Assembly: GCA_028278265.1 (NCBI GenBank)
Contig: JANQET010000013.1
Span: forward strand, 1 to 64,000
Length of the DNA: 64,000 nt
Reading direction: 5' to 3'
Source: Myxococcota bacterium
GTDB lineage: Bacteria > Myxococcota_A > Polyangia > JAAYKL01
The notes under the pieces were generated by a model that worked only from the letters and a program-made list of their open reading frames with translations, ran no database searches and was not told where the DNA came from. Numbering within the stretch: the stretch's first letter is position 1; each line of letters starts with the position of its first letter. The translations under genes were made by a program, and so were the position numbers. This document shows, piece by piece, positions 52,810 to 64,000 of this stretch.

Positions 52810-54165
52810 ATGATGCGATTTCTGTTAGGAGCGGTGGTGGGGACGGTATTGTTCGCGGGGTGTTCGTCCGGGGTTCAGCAAACACCCAATCTGTTGCCCG
52901 ACCCATCGATGGCGCCGGGAAGAGAGGTCGAGTCGGTGGTTCCCCAGACGGCCGAACCGGAGACGGGCACCGCGAGTACCCCGGTAGAGCAAGAGGAAGC
53001 GGAACCCTCTGCTCCGGCGCCCGATCAACCGAGCGAGGCGACGGTGGTGACCGGCAACACCGAGTTTGCCTTTGGTCTGTACCGCCGGCTCGCAGGGCAG
53101 GAGGGAAATCTCGCGCTGTCGCCGTACAGTCTCTCGGTGGCACTGGCGATGACCTATGCTGGCGCGCGGGGCAAGACCGCCAAACAGCTCGCCTACGCCA
53201 CCCACCTGGCCCATCCGCCGGGCCAGCTGCATCAGCGGTTCTCGACGCTGCAAGCCGACCTCAAGGGGGTCGATTCGGTGACCCTGCACATTGCCAACGC
53301 CCTGTGGCCCAGCGACGCATACCCCTTCAAAGCGGACTACCTGAGCCTGCTCAAGGAGACCTACCAATCACCGATTACGCCCCTCGACTACGAGCAGGAT
53401 TTTCGCCGGGGGCGGCGGGTCATCAACCGCTGGGTCGGTAAGCAGACCAAGGGCAAAATCACCAATCTCATCGAGCCGGGCGTCCTCGATACCCTGACCA
53501 AGTTGGTGCTGACCAACGCGATCTACTTTACCGGCAATTGGGCCGTGCCGTTCGACAAGAAACTGACCAAACGGTTGCCGTTCCATCTCTCCGAGCAACA
53601 GACCGTCAAAGTACCGATGATGGCCGACAAGCGCCGCCTCAAGTTTTACGAAGATCACGAGGTTCAGCTGGTGGAGTTACCCTATGAAGGCGAGCGGCTG
53701 GCGATGGTGCTGATGCTGCCCAAGAAGGGCAATACCCTGGCCAAGCTCGAGCAATCGCTCAACGGCGACCTGTGGGCGAGTTGGGCCGGCAGCCTCAATC
53801 CCCTCCAGGTGCAGCTGATGTTGCCCCGATTCGAGATCTCCTCCGCATTCAAGCTCGAGGAGCAGCTGAAAAAAATGGGTGTGTTGGACGCGTTCGACCG
53901 CGCGCGGGCTGATTTCAGCGGGATGGCCGAACGGGCTGTGTTGGAGAAACAGGGCAACCTGTATATCTCCGCAGTGATCCACAAAGCGTTCACCAAGGTC
54001 AACGAAAAGGGCACCACCGCGGCGGCGGCCTCTGCCGTGGTAATGGAGACCTATTCGGCCCCGGCTGAATTTCGCGCGGATCGCCCCTTCCTGTTCGTCA
54101 TTCGCGACACCAAGACCGGCACCGTGTTGTTCATCGGTCGAGTGTCGAATCCCAAAAACAAATAG
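52810..54165 (+). CDS. Serpin-family protease inhibitor, lipoprotein
   Basis: Lipobox VLFAGC; NLALSPYSLSVALAMTYAGARGKTAKQL; LVLTNAIYFTGNWAVPFD; hinge NEKGTTAAAASAVV; DRPFLFVIRDTKTGTVLFIGRVSNP. Confidence 0.95.
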   Translation: MMRFLLGAVVGTVLFAGCSSGVQQTPNLLPDPSMAPGREVESVVPQTAEPETGTASTPVEQEEAEPSAPAPDQPSEATVVTGNTEFAFGLYRRLAGQEGNLALSPYSLSVALAMTYAGARGKTAKQLAYATHLAHPPGQLHQRFSTLQADLKGVDSVTLHIANALWPSDAYPFKADYLSLLKETYQSPITPLDYEQDFRRGRRVINRWVGKQTKGKITNLIEPGVLDTLTKLVLTNAIYFTGNWAVPFDKKLTKRLPFHLSEQQTVKVPMMADKRRLKFYEDHEVQLVELPYEGERLAMVLMLPKKGNTLAKLEQSLNGDLWASWAGSLNPLQVQLMLPRFEISSAFKLEEQLKKMGVLDAFDRARADFSGMAERAVLEKQGNLYISAVIHKAFTKVNEKGTTAAAASAVVMETYSAPAEFRADRPFLFVIRDTKTGTVLFIGRVSNPKNK

Positions 54166-56222: not shown

Positions 56223-57086
56223 CTATTTCTCAGATCTGCCGGTGTACTGTTCCAGCAGCTGGCGGTAGTCTGCCGCCGATGCGGCACGGATGGCCGAGAT
56301 GGTCAGCGCGCGGCACAGATCCCGCCCCTCGGCGGTCTCGCACAACCCCACCAACGCCTTTTTGAGCTTTTCGGTGCGCGATTTATCACCGCCGATCACG
56401 ACCACTGCCGGAGCGGGAATCGGCTTGGAGGTGTGGATGATTTTGAGGTCCTTGGCAAAATCGAGAGAGGGGAGGTGTTCGACGACCGCCCGGTCGACGA
56501 TGGCCGCATCTGCCTTGCCGCTCAACACCTGTCGCAACGCCTTGAGGGGGCGTTTTTGGGTCTCCAGGATCACCGAATCCAGGGGGAGTCGGCCGTCGAG
56601 AAGAACCCGCACCACGAAGCGGGAATCGTTGACCACCGCGCCGATCAGCTTCTTCCCCTTGAGCTCGGACAACTCTTTCGGCCCGTCTAGGCGGGTGAGC
56701 ACCGAGTAGGTCTCCTCACCGCGACCGTCGATGCTCACTTTGGCGACTACCTTCATCTTCAGTGCCTTGTGCTGTCCGGCATAGATCGATGGGCCGACCA
56801 GGGCGAGCTCCGGCTTGGTCCGGGTGATCCGCTCGGTTCCCGCGGCACCATCGGGAATGTAGGTGCCCGAAATGCTCTGCGGGGGTTGTCCGAGCTTGGT
56901 TTCCAGGTAGCGCAGCATTTGGTCCACATAGGGTTGAGCCTGGGTGGTGGAGCCGGGAAATCCGGGCAAGCACAACACCACGGTGTTGACCTGTCCGAGC
57001 GCCGGAAGGACCAGCGCGGTCATCAGGGCAACGGTCATCCAAAAGGGGTGCAACTTACGACTCAAATCGGCCTCCTCGTCAGGCAT
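56223..57086 (-). CDS. PhnD-like phosphate/phosphonate-type periplasmic binding protein
   Basis: Signal; YVDQMLRYLETKLG, LVGPSIYAG, LKALRQVLSGKADAAIVD. Confidence 0.75.
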   Translation of the reverse strand: MPDEEADLSRKLHPFWMTVALMTALVLPALGQVNTVVLCLPGFPGSTTQAQPYVDQMLRYLETKLGQPPQSISGTYIPDGAAGTERITRTKPELALVGPSIYAGQHKALKMKVVAKVSIDGRGEETYSVLTRLDGPKELSELKGKKLIGAVVNDSRFVVRVLLDGRLPLDSVILETQKRPLKALRQVLSGKADAAIVDRAVVEHLPSLDFAKDLKIIHTSKPIPAPAVVVIGGDKSRTEKLKKALVGLCETAEGRDLCRALTISAIRAASAADYRQLLEQYTGRSEK

Positions 57087-57090
57087 CGGC

Positions 57091-57840
57091 TCATCGCGCT
57101 CTCATCAGGGCCCGCTTGGTGAAGACGCGGTCGGTGAGCCCGGTGTTGACGCGACAGTCCTTGAATTCCATGATCGTCTGGGAGCCGGTTCGCTCGTCCA
57201 CCACGCGGAAATGGGTCGGTACGGTAATCGGTCCGAACGACTTCCAGTTCTTGCGCACTTGGGTCTTGACGTGTTTGTTGTCGCTACCGAAATATTCGAT
57301 TCGGGAGACCCCTTCGGTCTTCTTGAGCACTGTCACCCTCAACCGTTTGTACATGGAATCATTATCGGGCGTCGGGAGGAGATCTAAAATCCACTGCTTC
57401 TCGTCCTGGTTGACCACGTTGGCCTTCCAGCCGATGGTCAGCGCCGATCCGCCGATATCATCCGGTGAGAAATCGGTCCCCATGAATCCCTGATTGCGCA
57501 CATGTGCGGCAATCCGGCGGACCCGTTGGTAACTGGGTAAATACACGTACATATTGCCGTTTTCAGTGGTCAGGACCGCCATTCCCCGCACGTCTCCCGG
57601 CGCGGTGAACTTGACCAGCTTCATCTTCAGTCCCTTTAATTTGGCGGTGAAGGCCATCGATTTGATGATCTTGCCGTCGCGAATGACGTTGAGGGTCGCG
57701 TCGTAGGTCTGGTCACGTACCTTGGTCAGGTTGGCGTCTACTTTGGCCATCACATCGGCGGCCTCGTCAGCGCCGGAGACCCGCGTGGCGATCAGCACCA
57801 GGGCGGCGCAGGCAAATCGGAGCAAGGGGTATTTCTTCAT
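57091..57840 (-). CDS. Outer-membrane lipoprotein-sorting-like (LolA-like) protein
   Basis: GMAVLTTENGNMYVYLPSYQRVRRIAAHVRNQGFMGTDFSPDDI. Confidence 0.85.
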   Translation of the reverse strand: MKKYPLLRFACAALVLIATRVSGADEAADVMAKVDANLTKVRDQTYDATLNVIRDGKIIKSMAFTAKLKGLKMKLVKFTAPGDVRGMAVLTTENGNMYVYLPSYQRVRRIAAHVRNQGFMGTDFSPDDIGGSALTIGWKANVVNQDEKQWILDLLPTPDNDSMYKRLRVTVLKKTEGVSRIEYFGSDNKHVKTQVRKNWKSFGPITVPTHFRVVDERTGSQTIMEFKDCRVNTGLTDRVFTKRALMRAR

Positions 57841-58036: not shown

Positions 58037-58723
58037 CTACATGTAGAAGAGGTTGTCGATGTAGAGGATGGCTCCCTCTTCCCCGCCGGCACCGGTCATG
58101 GAGAACGGCACGTTGAGCGCGCCGAAATCCACCTCATCTCCGGAGTAGTCATCGATCGGAATTTTCAGGTCATGCCATTCGCCGTCGTTGGTATACCCAT
58201 ACGATCCGGCCTGAACACTGACCGCATCACCGTCATCCTCGTCATCATAGTCGTCGTCATAGGCAAATTTGAGCTGGACGTCGGCAAATGCATCGTCTGA
58301 CGATTTGAGACTGACGTAGAGATGATCGTAGTCGAGCAGGGAGACGGTCGACCCGTTGACCAAGTGCACGCCGCCACCCCACCAGCTCAGCCCGGCGTGA
58401 ATGATTTTATGAGATCTTTTGCCCTCATGGACATCTTCGGTGTCGTTCGCCGACGTGTAGGTCGCATCGTTCCGGTCGTAAATCCAATACGCTGCCTCGA
58501 TGTTGTTGACCTGTAGCTTGGTCACTTCGCCCGCGTCCGGGCAACCGTCGAAATAGATCCCCACGGAGAACCGCTTTTGGCCCTCTTCGCAGGGGACAGG
58601 ACCTTCGACCCATTCGGGTTCGTCCGGGGGAACGTCGTATTCGGGTTGGCCTCCCGGGTCGGGCCGACAGGCGACAAGGGCCACACAGATGGCCAAGGGA
58701 ATAATCCTGTTCGATAAATACAT
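58037..58723 (-). CDS. Lipoprotein with beta-jelly-roll, carbohydrate-binding-like domain
   Basis: Lipobox VALVAC; LYVSLKSSDDAF...EWHDLKIPIDDYSGDEVDFGALNVPFSM...ILYIDNLFYM. Confidence 0.6.
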   Translation of the reverse strand: MYLSNRIIPLAICVALVACRPDPGGQPEYDVPPDEPEWVEGPVPCEEGQKRFSVGIYFDGCPDAGEVTKLQVNNIEAAYWIYDRNDATYTSANDTEDVHEGKRSHKIIHAGLSWWGGGVHLVNGSTVSLLDYDHLYVSLKSSDDAFADVQLKFAYDDDYDDEDDGDAVSVQAGSYGYTNDGEWHDLKIPIDDYSGDEVDFGALNVPFSMTGAGGEEGAILYIDNLFYM

Positions 58724-59314: not shown

Positions 59315-62300
59315 CTAAAAGCTCACATTCATGTACATCACAAACTCGTATTCATTGCCCAAGCGATCCTCCCCTTGAGCGACCGTGCATTGGGGGATTG
59401 TATCGATGCAATGGGGATATCGCTCGGAGTGCTGATCGAGCCAGCGCATCTGATATCGGGCGCCCAAGCGGGTGTAGGGAATGAACAGCTTGGGCAGGCT
59501 CATCCCATAGGAGAGATCGCCCATCACCTGCATCGGGAAGGTGAGGTCGAAATCCCGATGGTAGTCGTAGGGGCCGAAATCGTTGAATTTGACAAAGGCG
59601 TGCAGCTGCAGCTTGTCCCACATCAGCCGGGCCTCGGCGCCGTAACGGGTGAGCAGCCGGGATTCGGGCCGGTAGCCCTGGATTTGCCCGACGTAGAGAT
59701 CGCTGACGATGTGCAGATTCCAGGCGGGATTGAAGAACAGCTTGGCCCGCCCGTCCCATTCGTTTTTGGCCGGCGGCGCGCCATCAAAGGCGAAGATGTA
59801 GTATTCCGCACTGATCGCGGTGGTGGCATCCCGCTGAGTGGGCTGGATTTTGTAGACGAAGTCCAGGGCAGCGGCAAACGGCGCATCTTCTTTCTCGTCA
59901 TTGTCCCAATCCCAGAACCAGGTTTTGGGAGTGGGATCGTACATCAGCACCAGCTCGAAGCCGTAGGTTTCCCGGTTGCCCAACACGGCGAACGGATCGT
60001 CCAGAATGTTTCGCGGCTTGATCCCGGGATAGTAGACGCCGTTGTACAGCCGGCCGCGCAACCGCTCGTCCGTGGGCAGGGCCCCCTCCAGCGGTCGCTG
60101 GAACAGCACGTTGGGCGCGATGAAGAACTTGTTCAGCTGGTAGCGCAGACCGGTCAACGCGTTGAACTGGTTACCCCGTCCGTCGGCCTTGAGCGTCCAG
60201 GGCACCATCGCCGCGGCGTTGTCCGGTCCCCCGTCGGCGACCAGCCCCTGGTAGGCCCCCTGCACGTACCAGTGAATCGGTCCTACATCCAGGGTCAACC
60301 GGGCCTTGGCCCCCAGGGTGTCGAGGAGGTAGATCTCATCGGTCAAAAAGGCGTAGTCGGTGCCCATGTAGCCTGTGCCCTTGGCGTCGCGCACAGCGAC
60401 GAATTTCTCGCCCAGCTTGTCCGAACCGGCGAAGATGCCGCCCAGAGACAACCCCAGGGCGCCCTTGCGGTACCCCAAAAAGAGCGTGGTCTTGCGGGTC
60501 TTGGGTTCGGGGATAATGCGCGCCGTGGCACTGGCCTCCTGTTTGGTGAGATCCTCCTGGTGCATCAGGGCAAAGGAGAACGGGCCGAACTGCCGGTGGT
60601 ACTTGGCCAGCACCATCGGGTTGGCGCTCCAGTAGAGCTGCGGTCCAAAGGCGACCTTGAGCCCCTTGAGGGCCTTTTTGGCATCCAGCACCATGCCGAA
60701 CGGGGCGCTGGCGTTGTAGATGTCGATGTTCTCGCCGTAAAAGGCTTCCCGGTAGAGTCCGAAGAAGTCCCCTTCGGCGCCCCAGTGATAGTGGCCGGTG
60801 CGGTAGTACCCGTCCAGTTTGAAATAGTCGTTGTCCCAGCTCAGCTCTGATTGGTAGACTTTGATCCGCTCGTTGTCGGTGAGCATGACCGGGTTACCGT
60901 CAGCGTCCTCGATTTCGATGGGGGTGCCTCGGCTCTCGTAGAACAGCTTGTCGATTTTGTTGGTCGGCACGTTGCCCAGGACATTCAGCGACACACGCCC
61001 TTCGAGTTGGGGAGACGGATTGACCTCGAAATCGAGGAAGAACGATTCCATGTGATCGAACTTGGGCGGCTCGGGTGTGTCTTCACCCATCGATCGGTCC
61101 CCATCGGCGTAGATCATTTCGAACTTCATCTGCGCGCCGACGCCGAACATCTGGGACAATCGGTTCACTCCCACGTTGGCCATCGCCGCCTCGTACTTGA
61201 TCCCCTTCTCTTTAGGGTCGAGTTTGGCGAAGTGCTGGCGGATGGCGGTCACATCGACTCCCTCGGCATAGGGATCCAGGGCAAAGGCCTCCTGCAGCAC
61301 GTAGTAAGCGGTGCGGGGATAGAGCTCGTACTTGCCTTGCTCATCGGACGGTCCCTTGGCGCAGATCCCCATCCACTCCTCGTTCATGTTGTTGGTCCCG
61401 TCCTTCCAGTCGAACTGGTAACCGGCAGCGGCCCAGGAGGCGGCCGGATCGTGTTTGTCCAGGTTGAGAATCTGGCGGTACTTCCACCATCCATCAGACC
61501 ACTCGAAGACAAATCCACCCAGTGCGATGCCGTGGTTTCCCTTGCCGTGGGTCTGCTCGAGCACGTCCGCCCATTGCCACCGCAGGTAGTTGGCCTGAGA
61601 CAGGTGATCCTCTTTTTTGTCCTGCGCGTGAAACGCGTCTGCACCAAATTCGGTCAACAGTACCGGCAGACCCAGCTTTTTTTGCGCTCGGAGCCACAGA
61701 TCCCCGAAGGAAACCCCGCGGTAGGTGTTGGTGCCCAGAATTTCGAGATTCGGACAGTGCTTCTTGATCAGGTCGATGTACAACAGATCCCCGTTGGCGA
61801 TCACTGCCGGATGGTTGGTGTCCCGCTTTTTTATCTCGCCGATAATCTCGTTGTACATGGTGTACAGGTGCACCGCGGCGGCGCGGGTCGCTTCGTCCTG
61901 GGGACCTTTGCTGACGTTGGGGGGCAGCAGGTGGTAGTTGTTCTCGTTGCCCAGCAGCCAGAACAGCAGACCCGGCGTGTTCTTGTATTTTTCCACCATC
62001 GCGATCACGTCCGCCTTGATCGCTTCGCGGGTCGCCGGATCGGAGTAGTCCACCTGGAACCGGGTCGACCCGTTGACCAGAAAGCCGTAGCGACCGGCGA
62101 GGTGGTTGACCGAGGTGAAAATGCCCCAGTTCTGATAGATGAAGGTGATCCATTTGGCCGGGATTCCCACCTCAACGCGAATCGCGTTGACCCCCATCTC
62201 CTTGAGCATCGTCATGTCGCGACCGAGCACCTCGGCGATGAAGGCGTCCGGTTTGCTCCACAGATCGTAGCGATAGTTCTCACCGATGGGGACATAGCCC

Positions 62301-62596
62301 CAATTCATCCCTTTGACGATGAAATCCCGGCCGTTGACCTGCAGCTTGTAACCGCTTTGATCGTGAACCACGGCAACGGTTTTGGCGCTACCGGGAGGTG
62401 GGGGGGGAGCCTGCTCCTGTGCCTCTTCGGCTGTGGGTTCGGCGGCTTCGGTGTCACCCGCGGCGTCCGGGGGTTGTTCCGCAGTTTTTTCCGCAGGTTG
62501 TTCTGCAGGCTGTTGGGGGTTGTTTTGTGCGTCGGCCAGAGAGACTGCCGGACAGATCAACAAAACAGCGATGAATGGTCGTAAAAATCGGGGCAT
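59315..62596 (-). CDS. Glycosidase (clan GH-A-like TIM barrel) fused to C-terminal outer-membrane beta-barrel
   Basis: Likely start MPRFLRPFIAVLL (track start 62620). Signal, Pro/Glu/Ala linker, glycosidase core FIVKGMNWGYVPIGENYRYDLW...FWLLGNENNYH...LLTEFGADAF; C-terminal about 600 aa rich in amphipathic strands, ending EYEFVMYMNVSF. Confidence 0.8.
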   Translation of the reverse strand: MPRFLRPFIAVLLICPAVSLADAQNNPQQPAEQPAEKTAEQPPDAAGDTEAAEPTAEEAQEQAPPPPPGSAKTVAVVHDQSGYKLQVNGRDFIVKGMNWGYVPIGENYRYDLWSKPDAFIAEVLGRDMTMLKEMGVNAIRVEVGIPAKWITFIYQNWGIFTSVNHLAGRYGFLVNGSTRFQVDYSDPATREAIKADVIAMVEKYKNTPGLLFWLLGNENNYHLLPPNVSKGPQDEATRAAAVHLYTMYNEIIGEIKKRDTNHPAVIANGDLLYIDLIKKHCPNLEILGTNTYRGVSFGDLWLRAQKKLGLPVLLTEFGADAFHAQDKKEDHLSQANYLRWQWADVLEQTHGKGNHGIALGGFVFEWSDGWWKYRQILNLDKHDPAASWAAAGYQFDWKDGTNNMNEEWMGICAKGPSDEQGKYELYPRTAYYVLQEAFALDPYAEGVDVTAIRQHFAKLDPKEKGIKYEAAMANVGVNRLSQMFGVGAQMKFEMIYADGDRSMGEDTPEPPKFDHMESFFLDFEVNPSPQLEGRVSLNVLGNVPTNKIDKLFYESRGTPIEIEDADGNPVMLTDNERIKVYQSELSWDNDYFKLDGYYRTGHYHWGAEGDFFGLYREAFYGENIDIYNASAPFGMVLDAKKALKGLKVAFGPQLYWSANPMVLAKYHRQFGPFSFALMHQEDLTKQEASATARIIPEPKTRKTTLFLGYRKGALGLSLGGIFAGSDKLGEKFVAVRDAKGTGYMGTDYAFLTDEIYLLDTLGAKARLTLDVGPIHWYVQGAYQGLVADGGPDNAAAMVPWTLKADGRGNQFNALTGLRYQLNKFFIAPNVLFQRPLEGALPTDERLRGRLYNGVYYPGIKPRNILDDPFAVLGNRETYGFELVLMYDPTPKTWFWDWDNDEKEDAPFAAALDFVYKIQPTQRDATTAISAEYYIFAFDGAPPAKNEWDGRAKLFFNPAWNLHIVSDLYVGQIQGYRPESRLLTRYGAEARLMWDKLQLHAFVKFNDFGPYDYHRDFDLTFPMQVMGDLSYGMSLPKLFIPYTRLGARYQMRWLDQHSERYPHCIDTIPQCTVAQGEDRLGNEYEFVMYMNVSF

Positions 62597-62690
62597 GATC
62601 ACACCTGTTGCGGGGTCCATTTTGATTCAACGGGTTAAAGGATTAAAAACGACATGTTACCAGATTTTCAAAAATTGGGACTGGGCCCAT

Positions 62691-62833: not shown

Positions 62834-63403
62834 CTAATACAGGGCGAATGCCACATCCCAAAAGATATCGACGAGTGTTCCCAAATGGTACCACTGGGTA
62901 CCGCTGTGGAACCAGGCGTCACCGTCGTCATACACATCCGCGTTGGTGCCGATAACGCCCAGCTTGGTACTTCCGGTGATCGACCCATTTGGCCGTATCT
63001 CGATCCAGTAGCGATCGAAAGGAGAAACAGCCGTATCGTCGAGCGGAAAACAGAGCAAGTAGTAGAGATTGTCCGCCGGAAGACTCACGGTCCACGTTTG
63101 GAGTGGCAGACCGGTCTCCTCGTGAATCAGCGACACTGTGTGGGGGCCGACCTCCTGTCCCTTTTCACCGATGAAAAACTGGACGGCCCGCAAGGTGGAG
63201 AGGGGAAGGACGAACGTCTGGCCGATTCGTTCATTGCTCCCGCTGATACTGAACATCGCGTTGAGGGTTTGCAGATTGTCCAACACGGGAACTCCCTCAC
63301 AGGGATCTGCGTCAGTGTCGGTGTCGGGATCTGTATCCGTATCCGTGTCCGAATCAGTATCGGCGTCCGCGTCGGTTGTCTTTGTTTTTATAATTGACTT
63401 CAT
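62834..63403 (-). CDS. Asp/Thr/Ser-repeat protein without a recognisable signal peptide; jelly-roll-like C-terminal domain
   Basis: MKSIIKTKTTDADADTDSDTDTDTDPDTDTDADPC then beta-rich domain; in-frame TAA just upstream of the ATG. Confidence 0.5.
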   Translation of the reverse strand: MKSIIKTKTTDADADTDSDTDTDTDPDTDTDADPCEGVPVLDNLQTLNAMFSISGSNERIGQTFVLPLSTLRAVQFFIGEKGQEVGPHTVSLIHEETGLPLQTWTVSLPADNLYYLLCFPLDDTAVSPFDRYWIEIRPNGSITGSTKLGVIGTNADVYDDGDAWFHSGTQWYHLGTLVDIFWDVAFALY

Positions 63404-63477: not shown

Positions 63478-64000
63478 TTGCGAACTGCTGATTCAACTCA
63501 CATGCGCGCGCTGAACGCCAATTTAATTCTCAAATTGATTTGGAAAGAGAAGAGCATTTCAAGGGCGGAAATCGCACGACTCACCGGTTTGGCCCGCTCG
63601 ACCGTGTCGGAAATTGTCGGTCAGCTGCTCGACCACGGCTTGATCCTCGAGATCGGCACGGCCAAATCGGAGATCGGGCGTCGGCCGATCATGCTCGTTT
63701 TCAACTACGATGCGTTCGGTATCATCGGCATCGACATGGGCGTTACCCATGTGGGGGTGTCAATGGTCAATCTCGGGGGAGAGGTCAAGTGCTGGCGACA
63801 AGTCGAGCACCAGGTTCGGCCGGACCCGCAGGGAACCATCGAGCGCATGAAATCACTGGTTGACGAATGCATCACCGAGACCAATTTCAGCCCGGAGCGG
63901 CTGGTCGGTATCGGTATCTCCGTACCCAGCCCGGTAGATCCCGGCGATCCGGCGCAATGCCTTTCACCGCTGATTCTGCCCCATTGGAAGGATTACGATC
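63478..64000 (+). CDS. ROK-family transcriptional regulator (XylR/NagC-like), partial at window edge
   Basis: TTG 63478 or ATG 63502; MRALNANLILKLIWKEKSISRAEIARLTGLARSTVSEIVGQLLDHGLILEIGTAKSEIGRRPIMLVFNYDAFGIIGIDMGVTHVGVSMVNLGGE. Not in the ORF track because it runs off the window. Confidence 0.93.
   Translation, partial: MRTADSTHMRALNANLILKLIWKEKSISRAEIARLTGLARSTVSEIVGQLLDHGLILEIGTAKSEIGRRPIMLVFNYDAFGIIGIDMGVTHVGVSMVNLGGEVKCWRQVEHQVRPDPQGTIERMKSLVDECITETNFSPERLVGIGISVPSPVDPGDPAQCLSPLILPHWKDYD

Follow-up and report, generated by a model that had tools for sequence, protein, structure and literature searches.

The window, by which we mean the whole 64,000-nucleotide stretch analysed, encodes a single 1101-residue protein in which a clan GH-A glycosidase is followed by what is almost certainly, judging from its predicted structure, an outer-membrane beta-barrel. 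As far as sequence comparison goes, this fusion is a conserved family across phyla and no peculiarity of this genome. The protein looks like a combined pore and enzyme standing in place of the usual transporter, and on balance we favour its interpretation as a port for uptake through the outer membrane that brings along a periplasmic beta-glucanase, in beta-1,3-glucan loci that lack SusCD.

Domain architecture of the fusion protein

The original prediction described an uninterrupted 1101-residue frame with a signal peptide, a linker rich in Pro, Glu and Ala and a glycosidase fused to a barrel. The frame is open throughout, and the signal peptide (MPRFLRPFIAVLLICPAVSLADA; the start is probably codon 9, the second Met, at 62596) and the linker are read directly from the protein; the fusion of both parts in one polypeptide is supported by Pfam, an AF2 model and fold matches (Table 1). 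Separate family searches of the two halves, proposed as a check, were productive for the enzyme half only: the sole Pfam match of the whole protein is to the GH2 TIM barrel (5e-5, residues 93-331), and residues ~490-1101 had no match in Pfam, NCBIfam or PDB sequence searches.

Table 1. Positions of the fusion gene, its parts and its closest neighbours in the window
Feature	Position	Strand	Basis or remark
Lipoprotein, 228 aa, galactose-binding-like (CBM-like)	58037..58723	-	conserved downstream in Myxococcota
Lipoprotein, 188 aa	58739..59305	-	directly downstream of fusion; conserved in Myxococcota
Glycosidase-outer-membrane-barrel fusion gene	59315..62620	-	1101 aa; open frame, full-length relatives, AF2
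Predicted outer-membrane beta-barrel, residues 491-1101, about 24 strands	59318..61150	-	AF2, fold matches, strand analysis
Interdomain helices, residues 448-490, into strand 1	61151..61279	-	AF2 model
Clan GH-A TIM-barrel domain, residues 80-447	61280..62383	-	Pfam GH2_C, GH158 structures, stand-alone homologues ending ~447
E324, predicted nucleophile (TEFG, in LLTEFGADA)	61649..61651	-	aligns with E220 of BuGH158
E226, predicted acid/base (GNE, in FWLLGNENN)	61943..61945	-	aligns with E137 of BuGH158
Pro/Glu/Ala-rich linker, residues 32-79	62384..62527	-	sequence not conserved among relatives
Signal peptide, residues 1-31	62528..62620	-	read from sequence
ROK-family regulator	63478..64000, on to contig base 64704	+	divergent from fusion gene

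By alignment, the enzyme domain is a clan GH-A glycosidase, that is, a TIM barrel with catalytic Glu residues after strand 4 (in an NE motif) and strand 7. Its closest solved relatives are GH158 endo-beta-1,3-glucanases, a partial similarity with about 200 residues matched (E 1e-5 to 1e-8). Both predicted catalytic residues are invariant in an alignment of homologues (54/54). In the alignment with 6pal, the GNE Glu corresponds to chain position 115 and the TEWG Glu to 198; a single shared offset of 22 fits the two to E137 and E220 of BuGH158, where mutation abolished activity (PMC7157763). The originally predicted GH-A core and Glu pair are supported, and the numbering given for the pair is right. 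BuGH158 (PDB 6pal; PMC7157763) resembles the fusion in its clan GH-A core, in the exact alignment of the catalytic Glu residues and in its beta-1,3-glucan locus, but it lacks a barrel and has an Ig-like domain at its C-terminus. Membership of GH2 was rejected, as only the TIM part matches and the sugar-binding and Ig-like domains ahead of it are lacking. Glycosidases without a barrel were also found in the same phylum; these are signal-bearing, lipoprotein-like proteins, 27-30% identical, which stop at about residue 447 of the fusion. Separately, a second protein of the window's own genome (contig C372; L007, L012) contains a distantly related GH-A domain (24%), preceded by a long Asp/Ser/Gly repeat and by another N-terminal region, with no barrel.

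Modelling of residues 421-1101 by AF2 with a deep alignment of 80 homologues gave about 24 beta strands (pLDDT 89.8, pTM 0.84); a full-length model from 4 sequences (pLDDT 47.6) was discarded. The best 50 PDB fold matches of the barrel model in Foldseek are all outer-membrane barrels, among them MOMP, OmpF, OccK porins, BtuB, ZnuD, FimD and AlgE, with TM-scores so low (about 0.2-0.4) that no solved barrel serves as a close model. On the strength of the model and these matches, a reading of the C-terminal half as soluble beta-sandwich domains was rejected. We count 24 strands, the least certain being a short one (residues 641-647) that was kept because turn parity would fail without it. Over these strands the in/out hydrophobic alternation is 2.56 versus 1.34 +/- 0.20, above all 5000 shuffles. 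Lipid-facing positions are rich in Leu, Phe, Val, Ala and Ile and lumen-facing positions in Gly, Arg, Thr, Glu, Ser, Asn and Gln, and conservation is higher at the latter (0.67) than at the former (0.58). The chain ends in a recognisable BAM-type last strand (...EYEFVMYMNVSF, final residue Phe), and the family ends in EWEIRTYLHFNIG-like strands. Both the roughly 600 residues of amphipathic strands and the aromatic-ended last strand anticipated from the letters alone are therefore borne out, the strand number and the lumen being model predictions. Several extracellular-side loops are strongly conserved (GHYHWGAEGDFFGLY..., 0.85; LYWSANP, 0.94; GPYDYHRDFDLT, 0.91), which fits a substrate-selecting mouth or constriction better than a mere anchor.

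Spread and age of the family

Full-length relatives with 46-48% identity occur in other families of the same class. A scan of the genome collection with the single sequence gave no matches, and an alignment-based scan succeeded, yielding at least 542 candidate relatives, the best 80 of which match over nearly the whole length with 43-48% identity; the proposed search for the same fusion in related genomes thus revealed a large family, which had not been foreseen. According to record titles, carriers include Myxococcota (Myxococcus, Corallococcus, Pyxidicoccus), Bacteroidota (Flavobacterium, Algoriphagus, Cloacibacterium), Gemmatimonadota, Ignavibacteriota, Krumholzi-, Eisen-, Zixi- and Delongbacteria and Rhodothermales. 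These titles suggest about ten bacterial phyla, where single labels may be wrong because many carriers are metagenome bins; isolates with the fusion belong to Myxococcus, Corallococcus, Flavobacterium, Algoriphagus and Cloacibacterium.

Within its own phylum, the barrel profile matches 29 of 284 sampled genomes, and every barrel copy on an uncut contig comes with the glycosidase, a 717-residue frame (G250:C517) being the one possible exception. That frame aside, shorter barrel frames sit at the end of a contig or belong to broken copies, and no barrel-only relative was found in the 284 genomes or in 12 others. Phyla stay together in the tree, with Bacteroidota as one clade, and the enzyme and barrel halves have co-diverged (r = 0.74; shuffled maximum 0.16), both of which indicate that the fusion is old and has been kept.

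Gene neighbourhood and TonB linkage

Neighbours were clustered and named by Pfam or PDB matches (GH1 by sequence motifs), and were counted in 46 loci where 7 kb or more flank the fusion gene on either side. All but one of these loci (45/46) carry at least one of GH16 (40 loci), GH149 (22), GH17 (19), GH30 (12) and GH1 (9), and an MFS_2 sugar transporter is present in 28/46. The GH149 beta-1,3-oligoglucan phosphorylase was identified by a full-length match to PDB 6hq6 (E = 0). Other neighbours are a Reg_prop/Y_Y_Y regulator and proteins with CBM/PKD domains or sorting tails. Across the family, GH16, GH17, GH30 and GH149 enzymes are co-located with a sugar importer as in beta-1,3-glucan loci; the neighbourhood enzymes point to beta-1,3-glucan as the substrate, and on this genomic context a beta-glucan role of the fusion is highly probable.

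In the genome studied here, the only beta-glucan-type neighbours seen next door are the ROK gene and, after it and just outside the window, a GH16 gene (contig 64777-65769); no GH149 or MFS_2 gene was found on the stretch of this genome examined. The suggested operon with two lipoproteins, one of them CBM-like, gained support: homologous lipoproteins occupy the corresponding positions in other Myxococcota loci, and a homologue of the 228-residue protein matches the galactose-binding-like Exop_C.

Other genes of the region were noted in passing. Between the fusion and ROK genes lies a 189-residue frame (62834-63403, minus strand) that opens with an Asp/Thr/Ala repeat tract and for which neither a family match nor a relative among the other loci was found. 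Just downstream of the lipoproteins, 56223-57840 (minus strand) encodes two neighbouring proteins that may form a lipid or sterol transport pair: a LolA-like lipoprotein-sorting protein (PF17131, 2e-40) and a periplasmic binding protein of phosphonate type, which in NCBIfam matches sterol-binding BstB best (3e-36, below the cut-off). A bacterial serpin with a lipoprotein-like start is encoded at 52810-54165 (plus strand; PF00079, 5e-114), and beyond the end of the window the contig also encodes C25 (gingipain-like) and S46 peptidases (L008:11079-13397, minus strand, and L008:13567-15933, plus strand).

The fusion protein has no Plug or TonB_dep_Rec match in Pfam, and identity with SusC or a TonB-dependent transporter was rejected, the plug being absent and the GH domain occupying the N-terminal position. 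No SusC/TonB receptor or SusD partner was found beside the fusion gene. Twelve genomes with many TonB plug proteins each hold a single copy of the fusion, and the nearest SusC/plug gene among the matches listed in HMM searches is ~13 kb or more from it. At that plug density about two neighbours within 10 kb would be expected by chance across the 12 genomes, so the distance indicates lack of linkage, not avoidance, and a distant SusC could still be used whatever is absent nearby. TonB plug motifs near fusion genes were also looked for by regex, and none was found; that search had no positive control, so this point is carried by the HMM searches.

Proposed role and alternatives

In the 24-strand count, the turns of 2-3 residues are all found between even and odd strands, and the two termini share that side. 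In outer-membrane barrels the chain starts and finishes in the periplasm, and the topology accordingly places the enzyme at the periplasmic end. Of the two orientations originally offered, the topology favours a periplasmic enzyme with its own pore over a self-anchored surface enzyme, and we regard a periplasm-facing glycosidase as likely.

In the role that we propose, the fusion would be the outer-membrane component of a locus for utilisation of beta-1,3-glucan (laminarin-like). Glucan would be bound and shortened at the surface by the lipoproteins and the GH16 enzyme; fragments would traverse the barrel, selected by its conserved loops and polar lumen, and would be cleaved at the pore exit by the tethered glycosidase. 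The inner-membrane MFS_2 transporter and GH149 phosphorylase, GH1, GH17 or GH30 enzymes would complete the breakdown, with the locus presumably controlled by a ROK or Y_Y_Y-type regulator. A transport role of the barrel is, in our estimation, fairly likely.

Alternatively, the barrel could take the glycosidase to the cell surface and anchor it there as in autotransporters, with other proteins serving import. The order of N-terminal enzyme, helix and C-terminal barrel is that of type V systems, the downstream lipoproteins could be surface partners, and the helix at residues 469-488, immediately before strand 1 in the AF2 model, makes threading of the enzyme through the lumen conceivable. Type V autotransporter barrels, however, have 12 or 16 strands, and with about 24 predicted here the protein was not assigned to them. 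The topology attaches the enzyme at the periplasmic end, the long barrel loops are conserved in a way not expected of a mere anchor, and the clusters already have GH16 enzymes, secreted or in lipoprotein form, that can act at the surface. We therefore consider surface display unlikely.

It is rather improbable that the barrel transports nothing and serves only to anchor a periplasmic glycosidase in the membrane or as a platform for its assembly. A plug-less 24-strand pore would leak unless closed by loops, and such loops may close the lumen; yet within the barrel, conservation is highest at residues that face the lumen and in several loops on the extracellular side. The enzyme's soluble homologues appear to be lipoprotein-anchored or secreted, so that the retention of a 600-residue barrel across phyla argues for something beyond anchoring. 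Export or trimming of a self-made polysaccharide, as in the PgaA/PgaB, BcsC/BcsZ and AlgE systems, which pair outer-membrane barrels with periplasmic hydrolases, was rejected as very improbable in spite of AlgE being among the fold matches, given that the neighbours are catabolic (GH149 phosphorylase, MFS_2 importer, GH1/GH17/GH30, ROK regulator) and no recurrent glycan synthase is among those named.

An uptake port with its own enzyme shares features with several known systems. PgaA and BcsC, TPR-barrel export porins of 16 strands, likewise combine a large periplasmic N-terminal domain with an outer-membrane barrel for glycan passage, but that domain is a TPR scaffold and not an enzyme, and they serve export and not catabolism. 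GluM/Oar is presumably an Oar/TonB-type protein without a GH-A domain. Like the fusion, this beta-1,6-glucanase (named in PMC10800785) is a myxobacterial outer-membrane barrel protein, with reported glucanase activity. SusC/SusD laminarin PULs (PMC7157763, PMC6298971) also encode an outer-membrane protein with GH16/GH17/GH30/GH3 glucanases; the fusion differs in having no TonB plug and no SusD partner found, with an enzyme fused instead.

We found no published glycosidase-barrel fusion in the open-access full-text literature, and one may have been described elsewhere. GH149 CAZyme clusters without susCD are known from the work of Kuhaudomlarp et al. (PMC5827456). According to PMC13188888, Muricauda laminarin PULs include a "GH2 beta-glycosidase", and their order (LuxR, GH2, GH16, GH149, then GH17, GH30_1, MFS) matches that of the Flavobacterium fusion loci. 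North Sea MAGs express GH149-GH0-GH30_1-GH17 loci with an unclassified "GH0" (PMC10108472). By these locus descriptions, the Muricauda "GH2" and North Sea "GH0" genes probably belong to the fusion family; the passages on these loci in both papers list them as plain glycosidases and do not mention a barrel.

Laminarin is among Earth's most abundant glycans, and for the GH149/GH17/GH30 clusters without susCD (PMC5827456) no outer-membrane importer has been named. The fusion family is a candidate importer, with its enzyme, for these clusters, and its carriers include cultured Flavobacterium and Myxococcus species, such as Flavobacterium franklandianum and Myxococcus eversor, where a knock-out is feasible. 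In laminarin loci, genes recorded as "GH2" or "GH0" may have been mistaken for plain soluble enzymes. More tentatively, the fusion could be a TonB-independent processing pore, in which glucan enters the 24-strand barrel and cutting at its periplasmic mouth makes uptake one-way. If true, glycan import would have a third route, alongside SusCD/TonB transporters and simple porins, in about ten phyla.
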